Shown: piece by piece, positions 1,217-11,554 of the stretch | Numbering within the stretch: position 1 is the first letter of the stretch | Layout: each line of letters begins with the position of its first letter | From: Methanosarcinales archaeon | GTDB lineage: Archaea; Halobacteriota; Methanosarcinia; Methanosarcinales; Methanocomedenaceae | Direction: 5' to 3' | Assembly (NCBI GenBank): GCA_030614485.1 | Contig: JAUWTY010000018.1 | Coordinates: 1-11,790, forward strand | DNA length: 11,790 nucleotides | The notes under the pieces: generated by a model | Seen by the model: only the letters and a program-made list of their open reading frames with translations | Database searches by the model: none | What the model was told of the DNA's origin: nothing | Program-made: the position numbers and the translations under genes

Positions 1217-3034
1217 ATGGATATGAAGGAACTGATAACTGCAAATGAAGATGAACTCGTTGAGGTATTGTGGGAGTCTAATCCACAAATTTACAATATC
1301 CTCAGACGAAGTGAAGACTTGCATGTCACCAGGGATAAATTGTCCCGGTATTTAAACAATGTCGATGCAGCCCTTTTCAGTGTTTATTCCCACGGGCATT
1401 TCAAAAACATGAACATTCTGGAAAAAAAGAATGCAAGGGACTGCATTAGAGTGTTAAAAACCATTATAAGGACTGAAAATGAAAAACAGGTACGGTTCTC
1501 TGCATTGAAAATGTTATCCAAAATGGCAAAAGTGAGCAGGGTACCCAAGAGAGTAAATAAAGGATTCATCTTTGAGTTCATCTACCTGTTCCGGGGTGTC
1601 AGCGGGAGGTCAGGACTATATTCAGCCAAGGAAGTACCCTCGTTTTTGAAGCTTACAGGAAAGGATGCGGCACTTGAGCGCATGAAGTTCCTTGATGATT
1701 ATGCAGGTCGGATGGAACCGTTCTTTGAGAAATACCGTACCGGTCTGGAAACTGACCTGACACATCGCAGGTCTATGCTAAAGGAACTCATCCTGCAACA
1801 TTTTGGAGCCGACGAAGGGGACTGGAGTGATTATCACTGGCACCTGAAACATATCATCTCAGATATCAGTACACTGCAGAGTATTGTAAAACTTGACCAG
1901 GATGAACAAAAAGGTCTCAAACTGGCCGATAAGTATCACATCCCGTTCCAGATAACACCTTATTATCTTTCCTTGTTTGACAGTGAAAATCTCAAACAAT
2001 TCGACCAGTCCATCAGGGCACAGGTACTTCCCAGTGCGAATTATTGCAAGAACTTCTATGAAAGCAAACAAAAAAATATCAGCATGGATTTCATGGAAGA
2101 GGAATCAACCAGTCCCATTGAAGGAATCACGCGTAGATATCCCAGGATACTTATCCTCAAACCTTACAAATCATGCCCCCAGATATGTGTTTACTGCCAG
2201 CGCAACTGGGAACTTGAAACCATTGACAATAGTGAGATAACCAGGGACGTGATCACAAAGTCCATTGATTGGGTTGCGGACAATCCACATATCAGCGAAG
2301 TGCTGGTTACCGGAGGGGACCCGTTAACACTAAACGATTCTTATCTTGACTGGCTGCTGGGTAAAATATCTGATATTGAACATATTGAACGTATCAGGAT
2401 CGGGACCAGGACTCTGGTCACGCTTCCTTTCCGGTTCACTGACAGGCTTTTAGATGTGTTCAGTAAATATCATCGCCTGGGTGAACAGGAATTATGCGTG
2501 ATGACCCATTTCCAGCACCCCACTGAAATCACTCCTGATGTATTGGAAGTGGTTTCAAATATCAAGAAACAGGGTATTAATATCTATAACCAGCAGGTAT
2601 TTACTTACTATAACAGTAAGAAATTTGAATCATGCCTGTTGCGCAAAACCATGAAAAAATCCGGGATAGACCCGTATTATACTTTTAACACTAAAGGTAA
2701 GGATGAGACCATAGATTACCGGGTCCCCATCTCAAGGATAGAGCAGGAACGCAAAGAAGAGGCCAGGCTTCTGCCGGGACTGGAGCGGACCGATGAACCC
2801 GTGTTCAACGTACCCAGGCTTGGCAAGTCACACCTGAGGGCGTGGCAGGACCATGAAGTTATAATGATATTGCCAAACGGCAGTCGAGTATATCGTTTTT
2901 ATCCCTGGGAGTCCAACCTTGAACTGGTAGAACCCTATAACTATTTGGATGTATCCATCTATGATTACCTGGAACGTCTGTACCTGGATGGCGAGGATAT
3001 TGATGAATACAGTTCAATATTGTACTATTTCTGA
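1217..3034 (+). CDS. KamA-family radical SAM 2,3-aminomutase, glutamate-type pocket residues
   Basis: This cytoplasmic radical SAM/PLP enzyme is predicted to move an amino group from C2 to C3 of an amino acid. From about residue 203 it follows the lysine 2,3-aminomutase (LAM) fold: WSDYHWHLKHII, ITPYYLSLFD, the cluster motif C320-x3-C324-x2-C327, GGDP (366-369), RIGTR, THFQHP and a candidate PLP lysine K537 in PRLGK. R329, two residues after the third Cys, matches the LAM arginine that binds the substrate carboxylate. By my alignment the two LAM aspartates that hold the lysine side chain are replaced by K493 and N531, the pair I recall for glutamate 2,3-aminomutase. Residues 1-200 are a mostly helical extension absent from the roughly 416-residue LAM. 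The Cys-rich C-terminal zinc site of LAM is missing. The start may be ATG 1223 (603 residues), since AGGT lies only one base from ATG 1217. No AblB-like acetyltransferase is adjacent. Confidence 0.85.
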   Translation: MDMKELITANEDELVEVLWESNPQIYNILRRSEDLHVTRDKLSRYLNNVDAALFSVYSHGHFKNMNILEKKNARDCIRVLKTIIRTENEKQVRFSALKMLSKMAKVSRVPKRVNKGFIFEFIYLFRGVSGRSGLYSAKEVPSFLKLTGKDAALERMKFLDDYAGRMEPFFEKYRTGLETDLTHRRSMLKELILQHFGADEGDWSDYHWHLKHIISDISTLQSIVKLDQDEQKGLKLADKYHIPFQITPYYLSLFDSENLKQFDQSIRAQVLPSANYCKNFYESKQKNISMDFMEEESTSPIEGITRRYPRILILKPYKSCPQICVYCQRNWELETIDNSEITRDVITKSIDWVADNPHISEVLVTGGDPLTLNDSYLDWLLGKISDIEHIERIRIGTRTLVTLPFRFTDRLLDVFSKYHRLGEQELCVMTHFQHPTEITPDVLEVVSNIKKQGINIYNQQVFTYYNSKKFESCLLRKTMKKSGIDPYYTFNTKGKDETIDYRVPISRIEQERKEEARLLPGLERTDEPVFNVPRLGKSHLRAWQDHEVIMILPNGSRVYRFYPWESNLELVEPYNYLDVSIYDYLERLYLDGEDIDEYSSILYYF

Positions 3035-3072: not shown

Positions 3073-3276
3073 CTACATTTCTTCGTGACTGTACATTTTT
3101 ATTATTTTGACAGATAAATATACAATAAATAACACTTCTGCGGTTATTCCAATCACCCAGTTTTTGGGAGTACCTAACAGGTCAAATAAACCGATAAAAG
3201 GAATCAACAAAATAATAATTGCAACAATCCAATATTTCTCGTATAATTTGGATGAATGTACATTTCTTTTACTCAT
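3073..3276 (-). CDS. Small two-helix membrane protein, unknown function
   Basis: I do not recognise this 67-residue protein. It starts MSKRNVHSSKLYEKYW and has two hydrophobic segments, at about residues 16-35 (IVAIIILLIPFIGLFDLL) and 40-58, joined by a short GTPKN turn, then a charged end (KIIKMYSHEEM). This suggests a hairpin in the membrane with a positively charged N-terminus inside. The start ATG overlaps the end of the receptor-like gene in the sequence ATGAGTAA, and GGGGAGAT in the upstream gene's last codons serves as ribosome site. A TTG start at 3282 is possible but fits that site less well. Translational coupling suggests it works with the receptor, perhaps as a partner or modulator in the membrane; that role is inference. 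The gene is convergent with the aminomutase gene, 38 bases away. Confidence 0.75.
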   Translation of the reverse strand: MSKRNVHSSKLYEKYWIVAIIILLIPFIGLFDLLGTPKNWVIGITAEVLFIVYLSVKIIKMYSHEEM

Positions 3277-4930
3277 ATTCAATATCTCCCCACATCTTCA
3301 GACCTTGTTTGCTCAACTTTATGACCTTAGTTTCACCTGTCTCGACAATTTCTATGAATCCGTTATTACCCAGAATTTCTACGTAGTCATTCATTTCCTC
3401 GTTCTTCTGGATGTATTCTTTTCTTCCCTTCTTAAGGTCTGGATGGATTCTCTGCATAAGTTCATCCGGGGAACCCGCTTCACCAGTACCCAGTTCATAC
3501 ATTAATTTGAACTGGTCCCTAAGCGGCTCTGATATTGGGTAAAACGGCCTGGTAATCTTGTGTTCGATGTTGGTAAGATTGTCTCCACCATCTATCGAAT
3601 GTGTTGAATATGCCCGGCTATTTGTGATTAATGACGCAACATAACCAACGATTGTAAGGTCTCCTGTTGCACCTGTCAGGTTCAAAAACACTTTACGGGA
3701 TTTATCTTTCTCATTCTGGATTAAAGAAATAATGTCCCGGACTGATTTGAATGTATCATCCATATCAACATCTTTAGATGCCACTTTTGCATAACCCCCA
3801 AGAACATCCTCTGCATTGATAGTCCCAGAATCTACGCTTTTGTTCAGCATCCCCTTCCCTGTGACGTTGATTACTTTGTCTGCCGGGAGCTGTTTTATTC
3901 CTTTTAGCAGGCTTGCCTGTCCAACACCGGCAATAACAATATGGGATACAAATTGAATATTAATAATGTACAGTATAATTCCATATAACACAACAAATAT
4001 CAATACCCACCAGTGCCAGCACAGTATCCATGTTCCATAGTTAAGGCCCATAAAGTCACATTCGTAACTTTTATCTACACTTGTTATATCGATGTCTGAA
4101 CCATCATTTTCAGGTATTAACAATAATCCTGAAAGTGTGGCCGTAGACACAGGTGTATGCGTGGGTGTTGGTGTCGGAGTTGATTTATGTGAGTGTTTGG
4201 GATTACTGCTACCTCCTACGCTCTGGACAGATGGCACATAATACATGCTGTAAACTAAAGGATTTGTGCGGTTGTTGGGTACCATGAACTGGAAAAAATA
4301 TGTGGAATTATCATAACCATAATTCAATGAACTGTTCAATGGTACTATAAATATTATATTACCGCTTGCATCTTCAAGCAGTCCTTCCCTGAAATAATTG
4401 TACTGCGGATTACTGTCAGCGAATGTATATATGGTTGGTACATTGGTGATATTTATTCCGATAGTGGGGAGCTGGAAGGTGGATGTGTTGGTGAACGTAT
4501 TTGCACCCGAATCCCAATCGATTCCTGTGATATTGTCGATGGTAGATATATTCCCTGCTTTGAGTTCAGACAATACCGGGACCGTACTTGAATTTGTAAT
4601 CAGTATGAGGTCTCCTTCATTGATAGTGGCTCCCAGTTCAAGTTTATAGATGGTTCCGATACCTTGCTGGACCGGACTTACAGGGTTAGGGTAGATTGAG
4701 GAAGACTGGGCAATGATCTGGCCGTAGTATCCCTGCCATTTATCGGTATTCATCGAGATGGCAGAGAACTCTATATAGGTGATATAACCTCCTCTTGCGT
4801 CATGGCTGCCGTTACTGGCTGGTTCGGCGGCTACGCTAAAGGACGAGGCAATTATTATTGCCAGCATCAATAATGCCCATCTGGACCCAATTCTAATCTT
4901 GTCTCCAAAGATATTGTCTATATTTTTCAT
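3269..4930 (-). CDS. Receptor-like membrane protein: ectodomain, TM helix, CARF-like domain, winged helix
   Basis: The 553-residue product has a signal peptide (residues 1-35, hydrophobic stretch ALLMLAIIIASSFSVAA), then an extracellular beta-rich domain (36-235) with KWQGYYG at 64-70 and many N-x-S/T sequons. A Ser/Pro/Thr linker follows (about 238-262, TPTPTPTHTP), then about 35 residues, one strong transmembrane segment (about 301-327) and a cytoplasmic part. Residues 328-450 look like a CARF-type Rossmann domain: opening strand HIVIAGVG, then KVFLNLTGATGDLTIVGYVA, which resembles the CARF signature N-x-[ST]-G-G-[ST]-[KR] but lacks the usual second Gly and basic residue. Residues about 460-553 look like a winged helix (ISEPLRDQFKLMYEL ... 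GFIEIVETGETKVIKLSKQG), as in Csa3 and DUF6293 proteins. It is likely a one-component transmembrane sensor acting on DNA. It lies 13 bases after the CWB2-like gene. A longer reading frame to 5143 was rejected. CARF assignment is moderate; topology is well supported. Confidence 0.8.
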   Translation of the reverse strand: MKNIDNIFGDKIRIGSRWALLMLAIIIASSFSVAAEPASNGSHDARGGYITYIEFSAISMNTDKWQGYYGQIIAQSSSIYPNPVSPVQQGIGTIYKLELGATINEGDLILITNSSTVPVLSELKAGNISTIDNITGIDWDSGANTFTNTSTFQLPTIGINITNVPTIYTFADSNPQYNYFREGLLEDASGNIIFIVPLNSSLNYGYDNSTYFFQFMVPNNRTNPLVYSMYYVPSVQSVGGSSNPKHSHKSTPTPTPTHTPVSTATLSGLLLIPENDGSDIDITSVDKSYECDFMGLNYGTWILCWHWWVLIFVVLYGIILYIINIQFVSHIVIAGVGQASLLKGIKQLPADKVINVTGKGMLNKSVDSGTINAEDVLGGYAKVASKDVDMDDTFKSVRDIISLIQNEKDKSRKVFLNLTGATGDLTIVGYVASLITNSRAYSTHSIDGGDNLTNIEHKITRPFYPISEPLRDQFKLMYELGTGEAGSPDELMQRIHPDLKKGRKEYIQKNEEMNDYVEILGNNGFIEIVETGETKVIKLSKQGLKMWGDIEYE

Positions 4931-4943
4931 CAGAACATTATTT

Positions 4944-6728
4944 TCATTCCACAACAGACCCGCATTTTGGACAGAACTGTGCATCACTGGGAATTGATTC
5001 ACCGCAATTGGAACAGATAACCGGTTTTGCACCTGTCCCTGCCACTGCCACTGCACCGGTTTTCCGTCTAGACCATACAACTGCCGCAGCAATAATAAGC
5101 AGCAGTGCAAAGACGGCCAGGTGTAAGCCGGTTGAGATTCCACCTGTCACATTCAGAGGCAGAATTTCATCCAGATTTTTCACCAGGATTTCAGACCGCT
5201 CCCCGTAATCCGCATGTATCGGCACTTCCGGGTTATCGGCCAGGTCCGCTCTTGTGAGTTCCACTCTTGTTGAAACTGTTTGTTTTTCACCTACTTCAAT
5301 AGGTATGGAGTTCCCAAGACGAAGTATCTCTTCATCACCTTCTATCAGCATTGTTATGGAAGGACTCACATAACAGGGTACACTGCCCGTGTTCTCGACT
5401 GTAAGTTCGAGCCTTTGGGTGCCTTTGTCATAATTCACGCCTGACACTGAAATTTTTGAATCGTCTTCTACTGAAATAAGTGTGATATCCAGGATTTTTG
5501 TCAGCAATAAGTTCAATGAACCCGGAGCTTCTCCAAATTCAGATGTAACGATAGCACTCAGGTCGCTGCTCCTTGCATAAGCTGTCAGGTCAATATCATA
5601 GGTGCGGCCGGAGTCGCTGTTTGATTCTATGTACCGGGCAGTATCGTCTCCCACTGTACCCACACGTTCATCTCCTGCCATTATGCCAACCGAGGATTTG
5701 AAGAATTCCCCCATATCCGCATCATTGCGGTAAATGATCTCAAGTTGTTTTGTAGCTTCATTGTACTGGGCAGAAACGGCATCAAGAGAGAGTTCATAGC
5801 GAGGCAGGTAGAACTTGTCCAGGTCTTCTATCAGGCTCATTTCCCCGGTTACCTGCCTGCCCTGTCCGAACTTTACTATTACACTGATACCGGTAGCGTC
5901 CTTTAAAACCTGTCCCGAACCTACCAGTTCATTGCCGATTAAGGTACTGCCTTTGATATCGTTTGATTTCACAAATTCAATAACCTGGGCGGGAACGGTA
6001 TTTGCACCAATGAAAATGACAGGACTATCCCCGCTCATAATTGCGCCCTCGATGAACTCACCATTGGACAGGATTACCGAATCAGTTGGGGACAGTTTTA
6101 TGAATTTGCTGACAATTGCAAGGTTATCATCGAACCTGTTGCCTTCATCTATTATTTCAGGATCAAAACCGTTGAGTTCGTCCTTAACTGCTCTATCCAC
6201 ATGACCGTATATCAATATATTTTCAACATTACGGCTGTTCAGGAAGTTATTAACTTCATCAATATTATCGCGGTTGGCGAACAGTACCCATGAACCGGAT
6301 TTCGCAGCGTATGGGGCTGCAGATATGGCATTATACCCGTACTGGTCATCAACAATTATGAAACTGTTAATATCCAGTTCACTGGCGAGTTTGAGATTCA
6401 GTTCCCTGCCATCGGTTGATTTTGTCTCATCAACCACAGTCAGTCCGCCCTGTTCAATAATGTTTTTGTAATTAACAAGGTAGGGAACACTTTCCGATTC
6501 AAATAAACGTACGTCTAAGTTCTTGTTCAGGTACTGGGGAATTACTCTTGCATGGGGTTCACTGATTGCAAAAAAATAAGGCATATTGTTAAAATTGGCA
6601 TACATTACAGCCGAATAAACATCACCCCAATCAGCTGAATTGATTACTACCTGTCCGGCTTGCTGTGCATTTGCATATCCTGTGTTCAGGATAAGTAATA
6701 GTAAGATAATAAATATTAATTTTCTCAT
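4944..6728 (-). CDS. Membrane-anchored CWB2-like surface protein with cytoplasmic zinc ribbon
   Basis: The 594-residue protein has a signal peptide (MRKLIFIILLLLILNTGYANA), then a long ectodomain. Residues about 25-290 resemble cell-wall-binding repeat 2 (CWB2, PF04122) units: strand-helix units such as INSFIIVDDQYGYNAISAAPYA, then ENILIYGHVDRAVKDEL and SPVIFIGANTVPAQVIEFV. Two beta-sandwich-like regions follow (about 310-400 and 415-520; the second contains LELTVENTGSVPCYVSPSI, like CARDB or other Ig-like modules). One transmembrane helix (about 534-553, LHLAVFALLLIIAAAVVW) ends in a basic stop-transfer RRK, and the tail carries a zinc ribbon, C572-x2-C575-x10-C586-x2-C589. This ribbon type is common in archaeal membrane proteins and may bind protein or nucleic acid. 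ATG 6728 is preferred over TTG 6731 because AGGTGG lies 6 bases before it. It is the first gene of a probable three-gene operon with the receptor and the small membrane protein. Confidence 0.8.
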   Translation of the reverse strand: MRKLIFIILLLLILNTGYANAQQAGQVVINSADWGDVYSAVMYANFNNMPYFFAISEPHARVIPQYLNKNLDVRLFESESVPYLVNYKNIIEQGGLTVVDETKSTDGRELNLKLASELDINSFIIVDDQYGYNAISAAPYAAKSGSWVLFANRDNIDEVNNFLNSRNVENILIYGHVDRAVKDELNGFDPEIIDEGNRFDDNLAIVSKFIKLSPTDSVILSNGEFIEGAIMSGDSPVIFIGANTVPAQVIEFVKSNDIKGSTLIGNELVGSGQVLKDATGISVIVKFGQGRQVTGEMSLIEDLDKFYLPRYELSLDAVSAQYNEATKQLEIIYRNDADMGEFFKSSVGIMAGDERVGTVGDDTARYIESNSDSGRTYDIDLTAYARSSDLSAIVTSEFGEAPGSLNLLLTKILDITLISVEDDSKISVSGVNYDKGTQRLELTVENTGSVPCYVSPSITMLIEGDEEILRLGNSIPIEVGEKQTVSTRVELTRADLADNPEVPIHADYGERSEILVKNLDEILPLNVTGGISTGLHLAVFALLLIIAAAVVWSRRKTGAVAVAGTGAKPVICSNCGESIPSDAQFCPKCGSVVE

Positions 6729-6784
6729 CAAATTCCACCTGTAACTGAATTATTGTTAAAGTATTGTGCTTTGTGAATTTTGAG

Positions 6785-6813: not shown

Positions 6814-6841
6814 AGAATAGGAATTGTGTAATTCCTATTCT
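6814..6841. repeat. Perfect 12-bp inverted repeat in intergenic region
   Basis: Arms AGAATAGGAATT (6814-6825) and AATTCCTATTCT (6830-6841) flank a 4-base spacer. On the minus strand it lies 67 bases after the stop of the 226-residue gene and is followed by GATTTATTTATTCT, so it could form a terminator-like hairpin. It also lies about 20 bases upstream of the TATA-like box of the next operon, where an activator or dual regulator could bind. The sequence does not decide between the two. Confidence 0.8.
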
Positions 6842-6907: not shown

Positions 6908-7588
6908 CTATGTCAGTTCCACATAGAAGAAATATGTCTGCGGACTCACAGATGCATTCACAGGCACAACCATCTGGAAGTCTTTTGTGGTTCCGTCAAA
7001 GGCTTCCTGGTTACTGTCGATCATACCAGCAAACACGAAGTCGGTCATATTGCTTCCACTGAGTCTTGACAACGCCACAGTTTTCCATGTGGGGTTCAGT
7101 GTGGCGTTATATGTCTGGACATAAGGGCCATTCACTACATTTCCCGCAACTGTCAATGCTTGTGAACCGCTTAAGGTATTGTTGGCACTGTCAGAGTTGC
7201 TGCTTGTGAAATTGTATGCGGTGTCGATATCGTCTGGTGTTGCTGCACCAAGCTGGTCCCATTTGGTTAAGTCCATGACATTATCCAATGTGGCAAAAAT
7301 ATTTCCAGCCAGGTTTGAGAGGTTGTAGTTCCATGAATACATCACGTTACCACCGCTCTCAAGCTGAAGACCATTTTCACCAGATTCATTGGTCACGTTA
7401 CCAAAGTAACCCTGCCATTTGCCAGTGGTTGACGTAACATCTGAGAAATTGATCTCAGTTATTTGTCCACCGGTTGCAGTACTGCTTCCATTTGATACAG
7501 GTGCTGCACTTGCCGGCACTACTGTTACAAGTACTACCAGCAACAATGCTGCAAACAGTTTGCTTATATAGTCTGTTTTTCGTTTCAT
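6908..7588 (-). CDS. Secreted protein made of one WQGY-type ectodomain
   Basis: The 226-residue precursor has a clear signal peptide (MKRKTDYISKLFAALLLVVL, cleavage near ASA-AP at 28-29). The rest is a single domain with no membrane anchor. Its N-terminal part reads GGQITEINFSDVTSTTGKWQ followed by GYFGNV (motif at residues 57-65); the middle has NVMYSWNYNLSNLAGNIFA, and the end has FQMVVPVNASVSPQTYFFYV then ELT. The same pattern forms the ectodomain of the receptor-like protein and the C-terminus of the 1271-residue protein. There are several N-glycosylation sequons and no cysteines. The ribosome site GGAGG lies 7 bases before the ATG. I know no named function for this domain; it may be a surface or appendage component, or a soluble partner for the receptor. 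Its promoter is not clear in the 150-base gap upstream. Confidence 0.85.
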   Translation of the reverse strand: MKRKTDYISKLFAALLLVVLVTVVPASAAPVSNGSSTATGGQITEINFSDVTSTTGKWQGYFGNVTNESGENGLQLESGGNVMYSWNYNLSNLAGNIFATLDNVMDLTKWDQLGAATPDDIDTAYNFTSSNSDSANNTLSGSQALTVAGNVVNGPYVQTYNATLNPTWKTVALSRLSGSNMTDFVFAGMIDSNQEAFDGTTKDFQMVVPVNASVSPQTYFFYVELT

Positions 7589-7738: not shown

Positions 7739-10700
7739 TTATCTGAGTTCCAGATAAAAGTCCAAATCACCCCCCGTTACAGGATTAAGATTACATGGAA
7801 TTGATATTTCATAATTGCTGATTTTACCGTCTGCACCAACAGCCGCATTTTTTACAATTGCAATAAAGACCAGTTTTTCGTTATCCCCTGTGTCATAGTA
7901 TCCATTGGTATCTTTCGTCCCATCCCAAAGTATACCGGTTATGAAATTTGCATTAGACAGATTAGTATGGTCGGTCATATCCGTACTGTTCACTATGGGC
8001 ACATTGTAGATGACCTGACCATTGACTGTGAAGGATGTCCTGTCTATCGAAACATTCCCGTAATTGTTGCCTGAAGTGTTTGTGAACAGTTCCGAGATAT
8101 TATTTCCTGCAAATCCTGTTGCATTACCATACCCTGTTATCATTCCCAGATTAATATCAGCATCCAGGAAATCGCCCCCGCTTGCATTGGGAGAATTATC
8201 GCTGTCATAACCCAGCGGGTACAGTTCGCTCCAGTTTATGCCTGCTGATTTATTTACAGCATATAAATTGCCAATGTCAGTAGCGTTACTCCAGGTCCAC
8301 TTTAACATCACATCACTGGCACTATTATTTAAAACCACCCTGCCACTTACATTTCCATTATACTTCTGCCATGCTGACACATTGATGGTTCCGGAAGCGT
8401 TATTATTACTGGTATCTGTATCCAGAGTATTTCCATGAGGGTCTGCCTTGATGGTGATATTATGTGTCCCGGATATTGTGGTCCAGTAGGCAGTGGCATT
8501 GGCGCTGGCACCGGCAGCTATGCTGTTCATTGAGACATTATAGAATTCAGAACTACTTTCATAGAACAGGACATAGAAATTACCAGAATCAGATGCTCCC
8601 TTGTTGTAAATGGTGGCATTAATCGTCAGGTTAACATTTTCTTTAATTTCACCCGTTTCTGTAACCTTTGAAGCATCTACTCCATCATAAACAAATATTA
8701 TGTTCCCGGAAGTGAGGTTCAGGTCAGAGCCGGGACCCAAAAGCGTAATATTCCTTGTTTTTGAGGTATTGTAATTACCCGCCCAGTCATAGGCTGTTGC
8801 GTTTATAAGGTAGACGCCGGGTGATAATGCTGTAAAATTATTTACAGCAGGTGATGAGGTATTGGTAATATTCGTCACCGGCGTACCATTGGTGTAATAT
8901 AGAAATGTAGTAATATTTTTCAGGTTCAGGTCGGTTGCAGTTACGTTTACAGTAATATTATTCCCGAAATGAATGGAATTGTTTGCAGGCGTAGGACTTG
9001 TAAAGTAAATGTCGGGTGATGTGCTGTCAAGGACTATGGTCCTGGTCTGTGTAGTGTTGGAGTAACCAGACCAATCAAATGCTGTGGCGTTGATGTAATA
9101 TATCCCCTCAGACAGACCGATGAAAAGTACGTTGTTTGAGGAAGAGGTAACTGTGATATTGTTCACTTCAGTACCGTTCTCATAATAGAGGTAGTTGGTA
9201 ACATTTTTCAGGTTAATGTCAAATACAGTGATGTTGACTGGAATATAATCCTGGCTGAGGTTGGAATTATTGGCAGGAGTGGTATTGGCAAAGTTGATTA
9301 TGGGAGGGGTACCATCAACAATAATTGTTCTCGAACCAGTTTTATTGAAATTACCTGCCCAATCATATGCAGTGGCGTTGATTATGTAAATATTATCTAA
9401 TAATCCGGTAAAATTATTAAGGGTAGGAGAGGATGTGTTCGTTATATTGTTTAATAAAGTTCCATTATCGTAATAAATATAGATGGTGATATTTTTTAGG
9501 TAAGAATCGCTTGCGGTGGCATTGGTTTGAATATAATCAATGGTAAGATTCACATTATCAGGAGGTGTGGGGCTTTCAAAGGTGATGTTTGGGGGATTGG
9601 TGTCAAGAGTTATTGACAGAGTTTCGGATTTATTGAAATACCCCACTTTGTCATAAACCGTAGCATTAAGCAAATACGTCCCATCAGACAGACCACTGAA
9701 GAAACCCCAATTTTGCAGAGTGAAATAAGTGGTATTACTCATCAGGGTGCCGTTACTATAGTAAAGGTATATAGTGACGTTTTCGAGATTGTTGTCTATT
9801 GCTGAATAATTAAAATCTATCTGGGTATGTGAAAGATTTGAGTTATTAGCAGGTGTGGGACTGACAAAACCAATGGATGGTGGTGTGGTGTCAAGGATAA
9901 TGGTCCTGTTGCCGGTAGATGCGGAGTTTTCGCCTGTGTCATATGCCGTGGCATTGATGATGTAGGTGCTATCTAACAGGCCGGTGAAATTATTAAAAAT
10001 AGGTGAGGAAATGTTTGTAACATTATCTATCAGTGTACCGTTGCCATAATAGATATAAATGGTAATGTTTTTCAGGTTTTTGTCAAAAGCTGTGACATTG
10101 ACAGGAATATAGTCCTGGATAAGATACGAATTATCGAGCGGAGTGGGGGCCGTAAAGTTTATGAGCGGCAGTATGATATCGCGATCTGTCCATGCTGAAT
10201 GATTCACCCACGTCTGGTTAATGTTGGAACGAATATCAACGGTACGTGTGGATATGTTATGCTGGGTATTTGGAATTAAACCGGTTGCATTATAGAACTG
10301 GGTACCGTTTGAGACATTTATTATAAATGTACCATCCATCCAGACTTCAACATGGTCAAAATCAAAATCAGTGGGATCGGTCCATGTCCAGTTAATAAAT
10401 GTTTCATTGTAGGTTACATTTGTCAGGCTGGTGACGGATGCAGGTGGAGTAGTATCAGTTACGTTAGCAGTGTCAGTTCTATTGGCGTAAAGACCCTCTG
10501 CAGTGGTATCCAAATATGTGACATTAAATGTACCGAGTTCAACAACCTGCAGAATATTATCACCAACCGTGACAGATGTGTCTGCTGTGCTGATACTTCC
10601 CGTAAAGACGCCTGTATCATTACCGGTCTCAGTTAATACTATTGTCTCATTGTCTCCATTACTGCTCAACAATGTTACACTTGCGCTTTGGTATGAGATA

Positions 10701-11554
10701 GGGTCAGAATTCCGGTCGACATCATCAATCCTGACATAAACTGTATCGTAAACAATAATATCCGTGACATTACCAGAGCCGTTCATGTCGGCTACAAATT
10801 TGACTGAACCGTTGGTTGTCTTTGTACCTATAGTTAAATATGGTTCAGAAACGACATCAGATACGTAAGCATTATCGCTATCAAGAGCAGTGTTACTTAT
10901 GTCAGCATCTATGTAGTCATTTTGTATTGAGGTTCCGAAAACGAGCCGCATCTGACTTTCGTTTGTAAGATTTGTTAAATTCAGGAATATATCGAACGGT
11001 ATTCTCCAGTCTACAAAAGTGTTATTTGTAGTACCGAAAACATCTGGTGCATCAACAGCCCTGAAATATGTCCAGTTATTGTTGCCAACCACTACACTCC
11101 ATAAGGGGGTGACATCCGGAGCATCACTGGCTGTCATATTTTCTCCTGCATGAGTGTTTTTATGGAGATAAATTGCATCAACATTATTTCCACCTTTAAT
11201 GTACAATATGTATTCATAATTGGAAGTATTGCCATCCGTATCAAATTCTACTCCCCACACATGCTTATTGATGAAATAGTTGCCATTAAATACGGGGTCA
11301 TCTAAAATCCTCATTCGGAAATAGAGATCAGTCCCGTCATTGAATATGTATGATACAGGGTAGGTATCGTTACCAACAATTTCGACATCCTCTTTACCAC
11401 CATAGTCATCAAATGGGTCCGAAAAGTTTCCAGTTTGGTTTACAACAACATGCCACTGTTCGTCAGTTGGCCAGGCAAAGGCTGTAGAAGGCATCGAAAA
11501 AAGAATCAGGAAAATAAATGATATATTCCATTTTTGACAATTGCGATGCAACAC
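7739..11554 (-). CDS. Large secreted multidomain surface protein with Ig-like repeats
   Basis: The 1271-residue protein has a signal peptide (SFIFLILFSMPSTAFA). Domains in order: residues 28-243, a beta-sandwich resembling CBM9-like domains (SYIFNDGTDLYFRMRILDD); 246-365, a beta domain of the type VYVRIDDVDRN ... LTETGNDTGVFTGSI; 369-457, a fibronectin-III-like domain; 465-944, five Ig-like repeats; about 945-1060, a CARDB-like domain (NVNLTINATIYNKGASDSGN); 1061-1271, the WQ-x-Y-x-G module ending FYLELR. I counted roughly 95 N-x-S/T sequons, about one per 13 residues, and only two cysteines. No C-terminal membrane helix or PGF-type sorting tail is visible, so attachment is probably non-covalent or through the shared module. 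The start is GTG 11554 or TTG 11551; GAGGTGGT at 11564-11557 fits the TTG slightly better. A role in adhesion or the cell envelope is likely. Confidence 0.85.
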   Translation of the reverse strand: MLHRNCQKWNISFIFLILFSMPSTAFAWPTDEQWHVVVNQTGNFSDPFDDYGGKEDVEIVGNDTYPVSYIFNDGTDLYFRMRILDDPVFNGNYFINKHVWGVEFDTDGNTSNYEYILYIKGGNNVDAIYLHKNTHAGENMTASDAPDVTPLWSVVVGNNNWTYFRAVDAPDVFGTTNNTFVDWRIPFDIFLNLTNLTNESQMRLVFGTSIQNDYIDADISNTALDSDNAYVSDVVSEPYLTIGTKTTNGSVKFVADMNGSGNVTDIIVYDTVYVRIDDVDRNSDPISYQSASVTLLSSNGDNETIVLTETGNDTGVFTGSISTADTSVTVGDNILQVVELGTFNVTYLDTTAEGLYANRTDTANVTDTTPPASVTSLTNVTYNETFINWTWTDPTDFDFDHVEVWMDGTFIINVSNGTQFYNATGLIPNTQHNISTRTVDIRSNINQTWVNHSAWTDRDIILPLINFTAPTPLDNSYLIQDYIPVNVTAFDKNLKNITIYIYYGNGTLIDNVTNISSPIFNNFTGLLDSTYIINATAYDTGENSASTGNRTIILDTTPPSIGFVSPTPANNSNLSHTQIDFNYSAIDNNLENVTIYLYYSNGTLMSNTTYFTLQNWGFFSGLSDGTYLLNATVYDKVGYFNKSETLSITLDTNPPNITFESPTPPDNVNLTIDYIQTNATASDSYLKNITIYIYYDNGTLLNNITNTSSPTLNNFTGLLDNIYIINATAYDWAGNFNKTGSRTIIVDGTPPIINFANTTPANNSNLSQDYIPVNITVFDINLKNVTNYLYYENGTEVNNITVTSSSNNVLFIGLSEGIYYINATAFDWSGYSNTTQTRTIVLDSTSPDIYFTSPTPANNSIHFGNNITVNVTATDLNLKNITTFLYYTNGTPVTNITNTSSPAVNNFTALSPGVYLINATAYDWAGNYNTSKTRNITLLGPGSDLNLTSGNIIFVYDGVDASKVTETGEIKENVNLTINATIYNKGASDSGNFYVLFYESSSEFYNVSMNSIAAGASANATAYWTTISGTHNITIKADPHGNTLDTDTSNNNASGTINVSAWQKYNGNVSGRVVLNNSASDVMLKWTWSNATDIGNLYAVNKSAGINWSELYPLGYDSDNSPNASGGDFLDADINLGMITGYGNATGFAGNNISELFTNTSGNNYGNVSIDRTSFTVNGQVIYNVPIVNSTDMTDHTNLSNANFITGILWDGTKDTNGYYDTGDNEKLVFIAIVKNAAVGADGKISNYEISIPCNLNPVTGGDLDFYLELR
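8723..10162 (-). repeat. Five tandem Ig-like repeats of exactly 96 codons
   Basis: Equivalent positions start at residues 465, 561, 657, 753 and 849 of the large surface protein (INFTAPTP, IGFVSPTP, ITFESPTP, INFANTTP, IYFTSPTP), so the period is 96 residues (288 bp) with no insertion or deletion. Each unit also has L-K/E-N-I/V-T, a YY-x-NGT strand and Y-x-I/L-NAT-A/V-x-D. Repeats 3 and 5 are closest in their second halves (both contain NAT-AYDWAGN). The units have diverged at many positions. Confidence 0.9.

Follow-up and report, generated by a model that had tools for sequence, protein, structure and literature searches.

Surface-protein ectodomain fused through a transmembrane helix to a CARF-winged-helix module in a Methanosarcinales archaeon

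In an 11,790-nucleotide stretch of a Methanosarcinales genome, analysed as a whole and called the window below, we find an open reading frame (ORF) in which a surface-protein domain and one transmembrane (TM) helix are fused to a CARF-winged-helix module resembling HFX_2341 and DUF6293 proteins. We read its product, with close to even confidence, as a single-pass membrane signalling protein that is switched by its ectodomain and not by cyclic oligoadenylate. In CRISPR immunity, CARF domains have the known role of receiving alarms sent as cyclic oligonucleotides; if our reading is true, a CARF dimer would be usable as a general switch, and the state of the archaeal envelope would be linked to a module otherwise tied to defence. 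The parts are known; their combination, for which a single incomplete genome is the evidence, appears to be new. The receptor and the short ORF that overlaps it are laid out as follows.

3269..4930, minus strand: receptor ORF, 553 aa, with ATG at 4930 and TAA at 3269-3271
4826..4930, minus strand: signal peptide, aa 1-35 (hydropathy peak at aa 18-36; start shared with the same-genus ortholog)
4211..4825, minus strand: ectodomain of an archaeal secreted/surface protein family, aa 36-240 (ortholog, window paralog, alignment)
4013..4210, minus strand: Pro/Thr stalk and juxtamembrane segment, aa 241-306 (from sequence)
3950..4012, minus strand: TM helix, aa 307-327 (hydropathy 2.45 at aa 309-327)
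3581..3949, minus strand: CARF domain, aa 328-450 (PF19810 at aa 330-444; fold match to Cam1, Can2 and Csa3)
3662..3682, minus strand: place of the CARF strand-4 signature, NLTGATG, aa 417-423 (N-x-S-x-x-x-R/K in homologs)
3272..3565, minus strand: winged-helix region with an acidic recognition helix, aa 456-553 (sub-threshold PF22665; residue and charge counts)
3073..3276, minus strand: 67-aa ORF with two strong hydrophobic helices, its ATG overlapping the receptor stop in ATGAGTAA

Hydropathy analysis of the receptor gives two peaks, one in the signal peptide (aa 18-36) and one in the TM helix (aa 309-327, mean 2.45). The Pro/Thr stalk, STPTPTPTHTPVSTAT, is followed by the TM segment WHWWVLIFVVLYGIILYIINIQF, which contains no Asp or Glu and joins just ahead of CARF strand 1. 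About 226 residues lie C-terminal of the helix, and by topology rules the signal peptide, cleaved or not, would place this last part in the cytoplasm. A TM helix and a domain of DNA-binding type, i.e. the winged helix assigned by a sub-threshold Pfam match and by alignment, are found in one polypeptide. An initial annotation made from the letters of the window had placed the signal peptide, ectodomain, stalk and single TM helix where we locate them. It had also called the ectodomain sequon-rich: nine N-x-S/T sequons do precede aa 306, compared to four after aa 326, so that the richness is moderate rather than striking.

The Pfam family PF19810 (HFX_2341_N) matches aa 330-444 of the whole receptor with an E-value of 3.9e-7 and 31 bits (cut-off 30), and the cytoplasmic part alone with 3.7e-8 and 34.3 bits. 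Over its full length the module aligns with soluble CARF-winged-helix homologs at 19-31% identity. A phmmer search with the cytoplasmic half gave nine direct matches to soluble proteins of 234-252 aa (E 5.1e-28 to 3.5e-18) within a small set of fetched ORFs, two of the nine being one protein fetched twice. The predicted structure adopts a Rossmann-like fold of CARF type and matches Cam1 best, and also Can2 and Csa3, mostly over model residues 2-169; this fold had been named beforehand as the test of the domain assignment. No NCBIfam family, the HFX_2341 equivalog model NF051475 included, matches the receptor at E up to 1, and a soluble homolog (L049) scores 40.6 against that model (cut-off 500). 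A PDB sequence search with A1, an alignment of the cytoplasmic module, returned two weak matches, HlyU (E 0.3) and NolR (E 0.88). For the C-terminal region, PF22665 (DUF6293_C) is placed on aa 463-545 with E 0.01 and 16.7 bits, or E 0.0022 and 18.8 bits on the cytoplasmic part alone, both under the cut-off of 27; it matches 11 of 11 members of A1 at E up to 1, with a best value of 2.7e-10. The two Pfam placements agree with the CARF at 328-455 and winged helix-turn-helix at 456-553 proposed by the initial annotation, with the reservation that the latter match is sub-threshold, and the kinship to Csa3 and DUF6293 that it suggested is supported as well.

As judged from aligned residues, the fold of the module is retained while both of its putative binding surfaces are altered. 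After strand 4, a motif [DN]X[ST]XXX[RK] is described as frequent in CARF domains, if not universal, in the available text of PMC4012209. The receptor has NLTGATG at this place, retaining Asn and Thr and carrying Gly in place of the basic residue, a pocket position that is Arg or Lys in 44 of 51 full-length homologs and in 35 of the 40 whose recognition helix aligns gap-free. The 51 are what remains of 53 full-length ORFs after removal of two containing the window protein itself, and they come from already fetched loci, which makes the sample uneven. In Csa3, the loop residues Gly96 and Arg98 are reported to touch the phosphates of cA4 (PMC8699464, available text); this Gly-h-Arg motif is absent from the receptor, which by sequence alignment has Ala-Thr-Gly. 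The Gly96 place says little about the receptor, where it is Ala, since it is variable among the 51 homologs (Ser in 30, Gly in 16, Ala in three, Cys in two). As the Arg98-equivalent is Gly, the case for sensing of an intracellular nucleotide, as the initial annotation envisaged it, is weakened.

The recognition helix was compared with those 40 of the 51 homologs that have no gaps in it. An Arg present in all 40 is Asn in the receptor, and a position occupied by Arg or Lys in 39 of the 40 is Glu. The net charge of the segment is -3, compared to -1 to +5 in the homologs, and that of the receptor C-terminal domain is -6, the lowest of 52 sequences, two others reaching -5 and -4. Core residues are kept, namely a Leu found in 40 of 40 homologs and a Gly found in 39 of 40. 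Because the conserved recognition-helix arginines are lost, the earlier proposal of a working transcription factor loses ground and direct gene regulation is doubtful.

Upstream of the receptor, the window contains three further genes for membrane or secreted proteins and an inverted repeat.

4944..6731, minus strand: 595-aa protein with one TM helix and a C-terminal zinc ribbon, conserved neighbour
6814..6841, no strand: inverted repeat with perfect 12-bp arms and a 4-base loop, in the gap separating the 226-aa gene from the 595-aa gene
6908..7588, minus strand: 226-aa secreted protein, paralogous to the ectodomain of the receptor
7739..11554, minus strand: 1271-aa surface protein with Ig-like and CARDB domains, conserved neighbour

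The second gene upstream of the receptor (6908-7588) encodes the 226-aa secreted protein, to which the ectodomain is paralogous (E 1.4e-15, 31% identity); a weaker resemblance, of 25% in an alignment of three rows that carries no E-value, links the ectodomain to C-terminal sequence of the 1271-aa protein. In G006, a genome of the same genus, the ortholog shares 88% identity over aa 1-200, after which the contig ends. When the whole receptor was searched against 60 relatives, 13 genomes were matched, the window's included, mostly through the ectodomain; the exceptions are a match to the cytoplasmic part in G042 and a weak stretch with stops in G030. Domains related to the ectodomain occur in other surface proteins, one of which (in G017) is joined to a PGF-pre-PGF domain (E 7.9e-38), and the long family members L005, L008 and L010 terminate in hydrophobic surface anchors. 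Structure prediction of the ectodomain from three sequences reached a pLDDT of 36, which supports no fold claim.

The order large surface protein (1271 aa), 226-aa protein, 595-aa protein, ectodomain protein is preserved in G006 and G029, and G017 has the same genes rearranged. This common gene order makes the receptor part of a conserved surface-protein cluster. The cytoplasmic part is unseen in two of these three relatives, whose contigs end within the ectodomain gene, and in the third, G017, the ectodomain is joined to PGF-pre-PGF instead. No CRISPR family scored above cut-off among the six window proteins scanned, in keeping with the setting outside CRISPR that the initial annotation had suggested. 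The arms of the inverted repeat at 6814-6841 are identical in G006, where the loop is changed, and by eye G029 has a different inverted repeat at the same place; the repeat core is single-copy across the contigs of its own genome. The element fits an RNA hairpin, a processing site or an operator. Bacterial promoter patterns show no excess in the window (13, compared to 14.7 in shuffles), and terminator-like sites number 7 against 4.1 in shuffles (sd 1.9).

The 67-aa ORF is preceded by a G-rich stretch, GGGGAGAT, ahead of its ATG. Across the genomes of 60 relatives it matches, besides itself, parts of larger frames in three genomes only (G010, E 3.3e-12; G003, 7.3e-11; G004, 1.4e-5), and a profile search across the order's 185 genomes found it in four, one of them the window's. 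The larger frames encode surface membrane proteins from within the genus and family of the window's genome. In the three larger proteins (L121, L122 and L123, of 492-553 aa), a signal peptide, an ectodomain (with cohesin in two cases), a TM helix and a cytoplasmic loop precede the homolog of the 67-aa ORF, which forms the C-terminal helix pair. By this comparison the 67-aa pair looks like a tail cut loose where the CARF-winged-helix module replaced the loop, and the overlap of the two genes, together with the place of the pair in the other proteins, makes the 67-aa protein a probable partner of the receptor. The receptor TM helix weakly resembles those of the three proteins (E 0.009-0.044 in a three-sequence set), and we do not claim common descent. 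Neither this overlapping ORF nor the paralogy of the ectodomain with the 226-aa protein figured in the initial annotation.

The family to which the CARF part belongs is common, and the fusion is rare. Within the order, 86 of 185 genomes contain PF19810. A profile of the full module matched 71 of 237 genomes of the class, where all of the matches listed but the window's have frames shorter than 310 aa, and 218 of 392 sampled genomes of the phylum. The initial annotation had suggested a genome search for the same signal-ectodomain-TM-CARF order; at the level of order, class and phylum, no second ectodomain-TM-CARF fusion was seen among the matches listed, some of which are cut by contig ends so that a fusion is possible there, as for the 76-aa match G068:C43. 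The gene following that match is a HAD-like ORF, which by eye also lies beside a soluble homolog in G079. When genome contigs were scanned with the single cytoplasmic sequence, none of 49 candidate stretches proved to be a relative; alignment A1 gave six loci there, none of them fused to a TM helix, and in viral contigs it gave 47 candidate stretches without a relative among them. In G040, an open frame of 412 aa that matches PF19810 was considered as a second receptor and rejected, as its 407-aa ORF has no TM helix by hydropathy; this ORF (L052:3725-4945) lies downstream of other ORFs. The same check rejected five phylum matches as fusions (L112-L116, 306-370 aa, none with a TM helix); the five are drawn from the listed phylum frames of at least 300 aa, which also include others of 301-310 aa, e.g. 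in G490, G299, G376 and G460. The fusion is documented in one genome only, given that the nearest ortholog, in G006, ends with its contig after the first 200 aa. The source genome is 58% complete, comprises 182 contigs and holds one complete receptor copy.

We propose that the ectodomain contacts or co-assembles with surface proteins of its own cluster, and that a signal would run along the single helix and, across hardly any spacer, into CARF strand 1. Like other CARF domains, this one is expected to form a dimer, and its winged helix would then shift in position. ToxR and CadC are transmembrane transcription regulators, and ToxR pairs with ToxS; by analogy, the two-helix protein may partner the receptor in the ToxR-ToxS manner. 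It is the loss of the basic pocket residue that leads us to infer outside-in signalling in place of nucleotide sensing, and the loss of the usual DNA-contact residues suggests that regulation would proceed through an altered DNA contact or a protein contact. A bolder version, possible but rather doubtful, is that of a sensor of surface assembly in which a surplus surface-protein copy serves as ectodomain, the CARF dimer as a ligand-free mechanical switch and the split-off two-helix tail as a translationally coupled partner; evolution would then have moved the CARF-winged-helix module from intracellular nucleotide sensing to outside-in signalling. The signalling reading in general draws on the domain and fold matches, the full-length homologs, the signal peptide and TM helix, the paralogy of the ectodomain and the 1271-226-595-ectodomain order in G006 and G029. 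It is further supported by the overlap with an ORF whose counterparts in three relatives form the covalently attached tails of surface proteins, by the pocket Gly where 44 of 51 homologs have Arg or Lys, and by the lack of a Cas10 palm-domain match in eight genomes of the genus, which is weak evidence for the window's own genome, one of the eight and incomplete. Against it stand the single complete copy in a 58%-complete genome, the lost recognition-helix arginines, a Cas10 palm-domain match in one of 17 genomes of the family, and relatives in which the cytoplasmic part is unseen or, in G017, replaced by PGF-pre-PGF.

Alternatively, the module may have given up both of its functions and now serve only as a cytoplasmic dimerisation and anchoring tail of a surface protein. 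The missing basic CARF residue and recognition-helix arginines, the C-terminal net charge of -6, which is the lowest of 52 (with two others at -5 and -4), and the hydrophobic surface anchors at the ends of L005, L008 and L010 all speak for such a passive role. We nevertheless consider it unlikely, if only fairly so, as the whole module is free of stops and coding-like in its codon-position G+C, the core Leu (40 of 40) and Gly (39 of 40) are conserved, and the TM helix joins just ahead of strand 1. The initial annotation had favoured a transcription factor tethered to the membrane, which would combine a surface signal with a CARF-bound cyclic oligonucleotide. The fold matches to Cam1 and Csa3, the cA4 binding of Csa3 and the effect of HFX_2341 on transcription of many genes are compatible with this, but the Gly and Ala aligned with Arg98 and Gly96 (the latter at a variable place), the recognition-helix changes from Arg (40 of 40) to Asn and from Arg or Lys (39 of 40) to Glu, and the eight genus genomes with no Cas10 palm match make it improbable.

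Far less probable still is a membrane-acting defence effector in the manner of Cam1, with helices forming a pore upon nucleotide binding. Cam1 is the closest fold match of the module and likewise has its TM helix N-terminal to the CARF domain (PMC10808066). However, the available text of that report describes a type III CRISPR effector of 206 aa without ectodomain or winged helix, whose homologs have a conserved TM Asp that is thought to line the pore; the receptor TM segment has no acidic residue, and none of the six window proteins scanned matches a CRISPR family above cut-off. An assembly chimera of an ectodomain gene and a soluble CARF gene is equally remote. The single complete copy, the fragmented genome and the ortholog in G006 cut by a contig end would allow for it, but the reading frame is kept, and the two parts are separated by a stalk and a TM helix, a helix that all 14 soluble matches of the cytoplasmic half lack. 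In addition, composition is even, with a G+C of 0.42, 0.41, 0.39 and 0.42 over four parts of the ORF giving no sign of a join, and sequences related to the two-helix ORF form part of surface membrane proteins within this genus and family.

Among characterised proteins, HFX_2341 is described as a global regulator that affects the transcription of many genes and can repress cas genes (PMC11434293). It shares with the receptor, which scores above the PF19810 cut-off, a CARF domain followed by a winged helix; in contrast to this 308-aa protein, for which the available text of PMC11434293 mentions no membrane part, the receptor is membrane-tethered, has an ectodomain and carries changed functional residues. 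Csa3 binds cA4 via Gly96 and Arg98 among other residues (PMC8699464, available text), where the receptor aligns Ala and Gly. The initial annotation presented such a design as apparently undescribed, and this holds for the combination: within a largely open-access literature, we found no description of an ectodomain-TM-CARF-winged-helix protein. It does not hold for the components, as TM-linked CARF proteins and archaeal membrane-bound regulators are already known. Many proteins joining CARF to TM domains have been predicted (PMC9704534), and the 2014 CARF survey lists "a membrane-associated CARF", with no ectodomain mentioned in the available part of its text. Membrane-bound one-component regulators are reported to be widespread in archaea (PMC10269533), in a 2023 census in whose main text, as available, neither "CARF" nor "Rossmann" occurs. 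ArnR and ArnR1, which control surface structures in Sulfolobus (PMC6396743), likewise combine a domain of DNA-binding type and TM segments in one chain according to the text at hand, whereas the DNA-contact residues of the receptor are not conserved.

Elsewhere in the window, positions 1217-3034 encode a KamA-family radical SAM protein (TIGR00238, E 1.4e-91) in which the match begins at aa 192, after a long N-terminal part without clear family, and positions 352-1026 encode a DtxR/MntR-type metal regulator with a FeoA domain.
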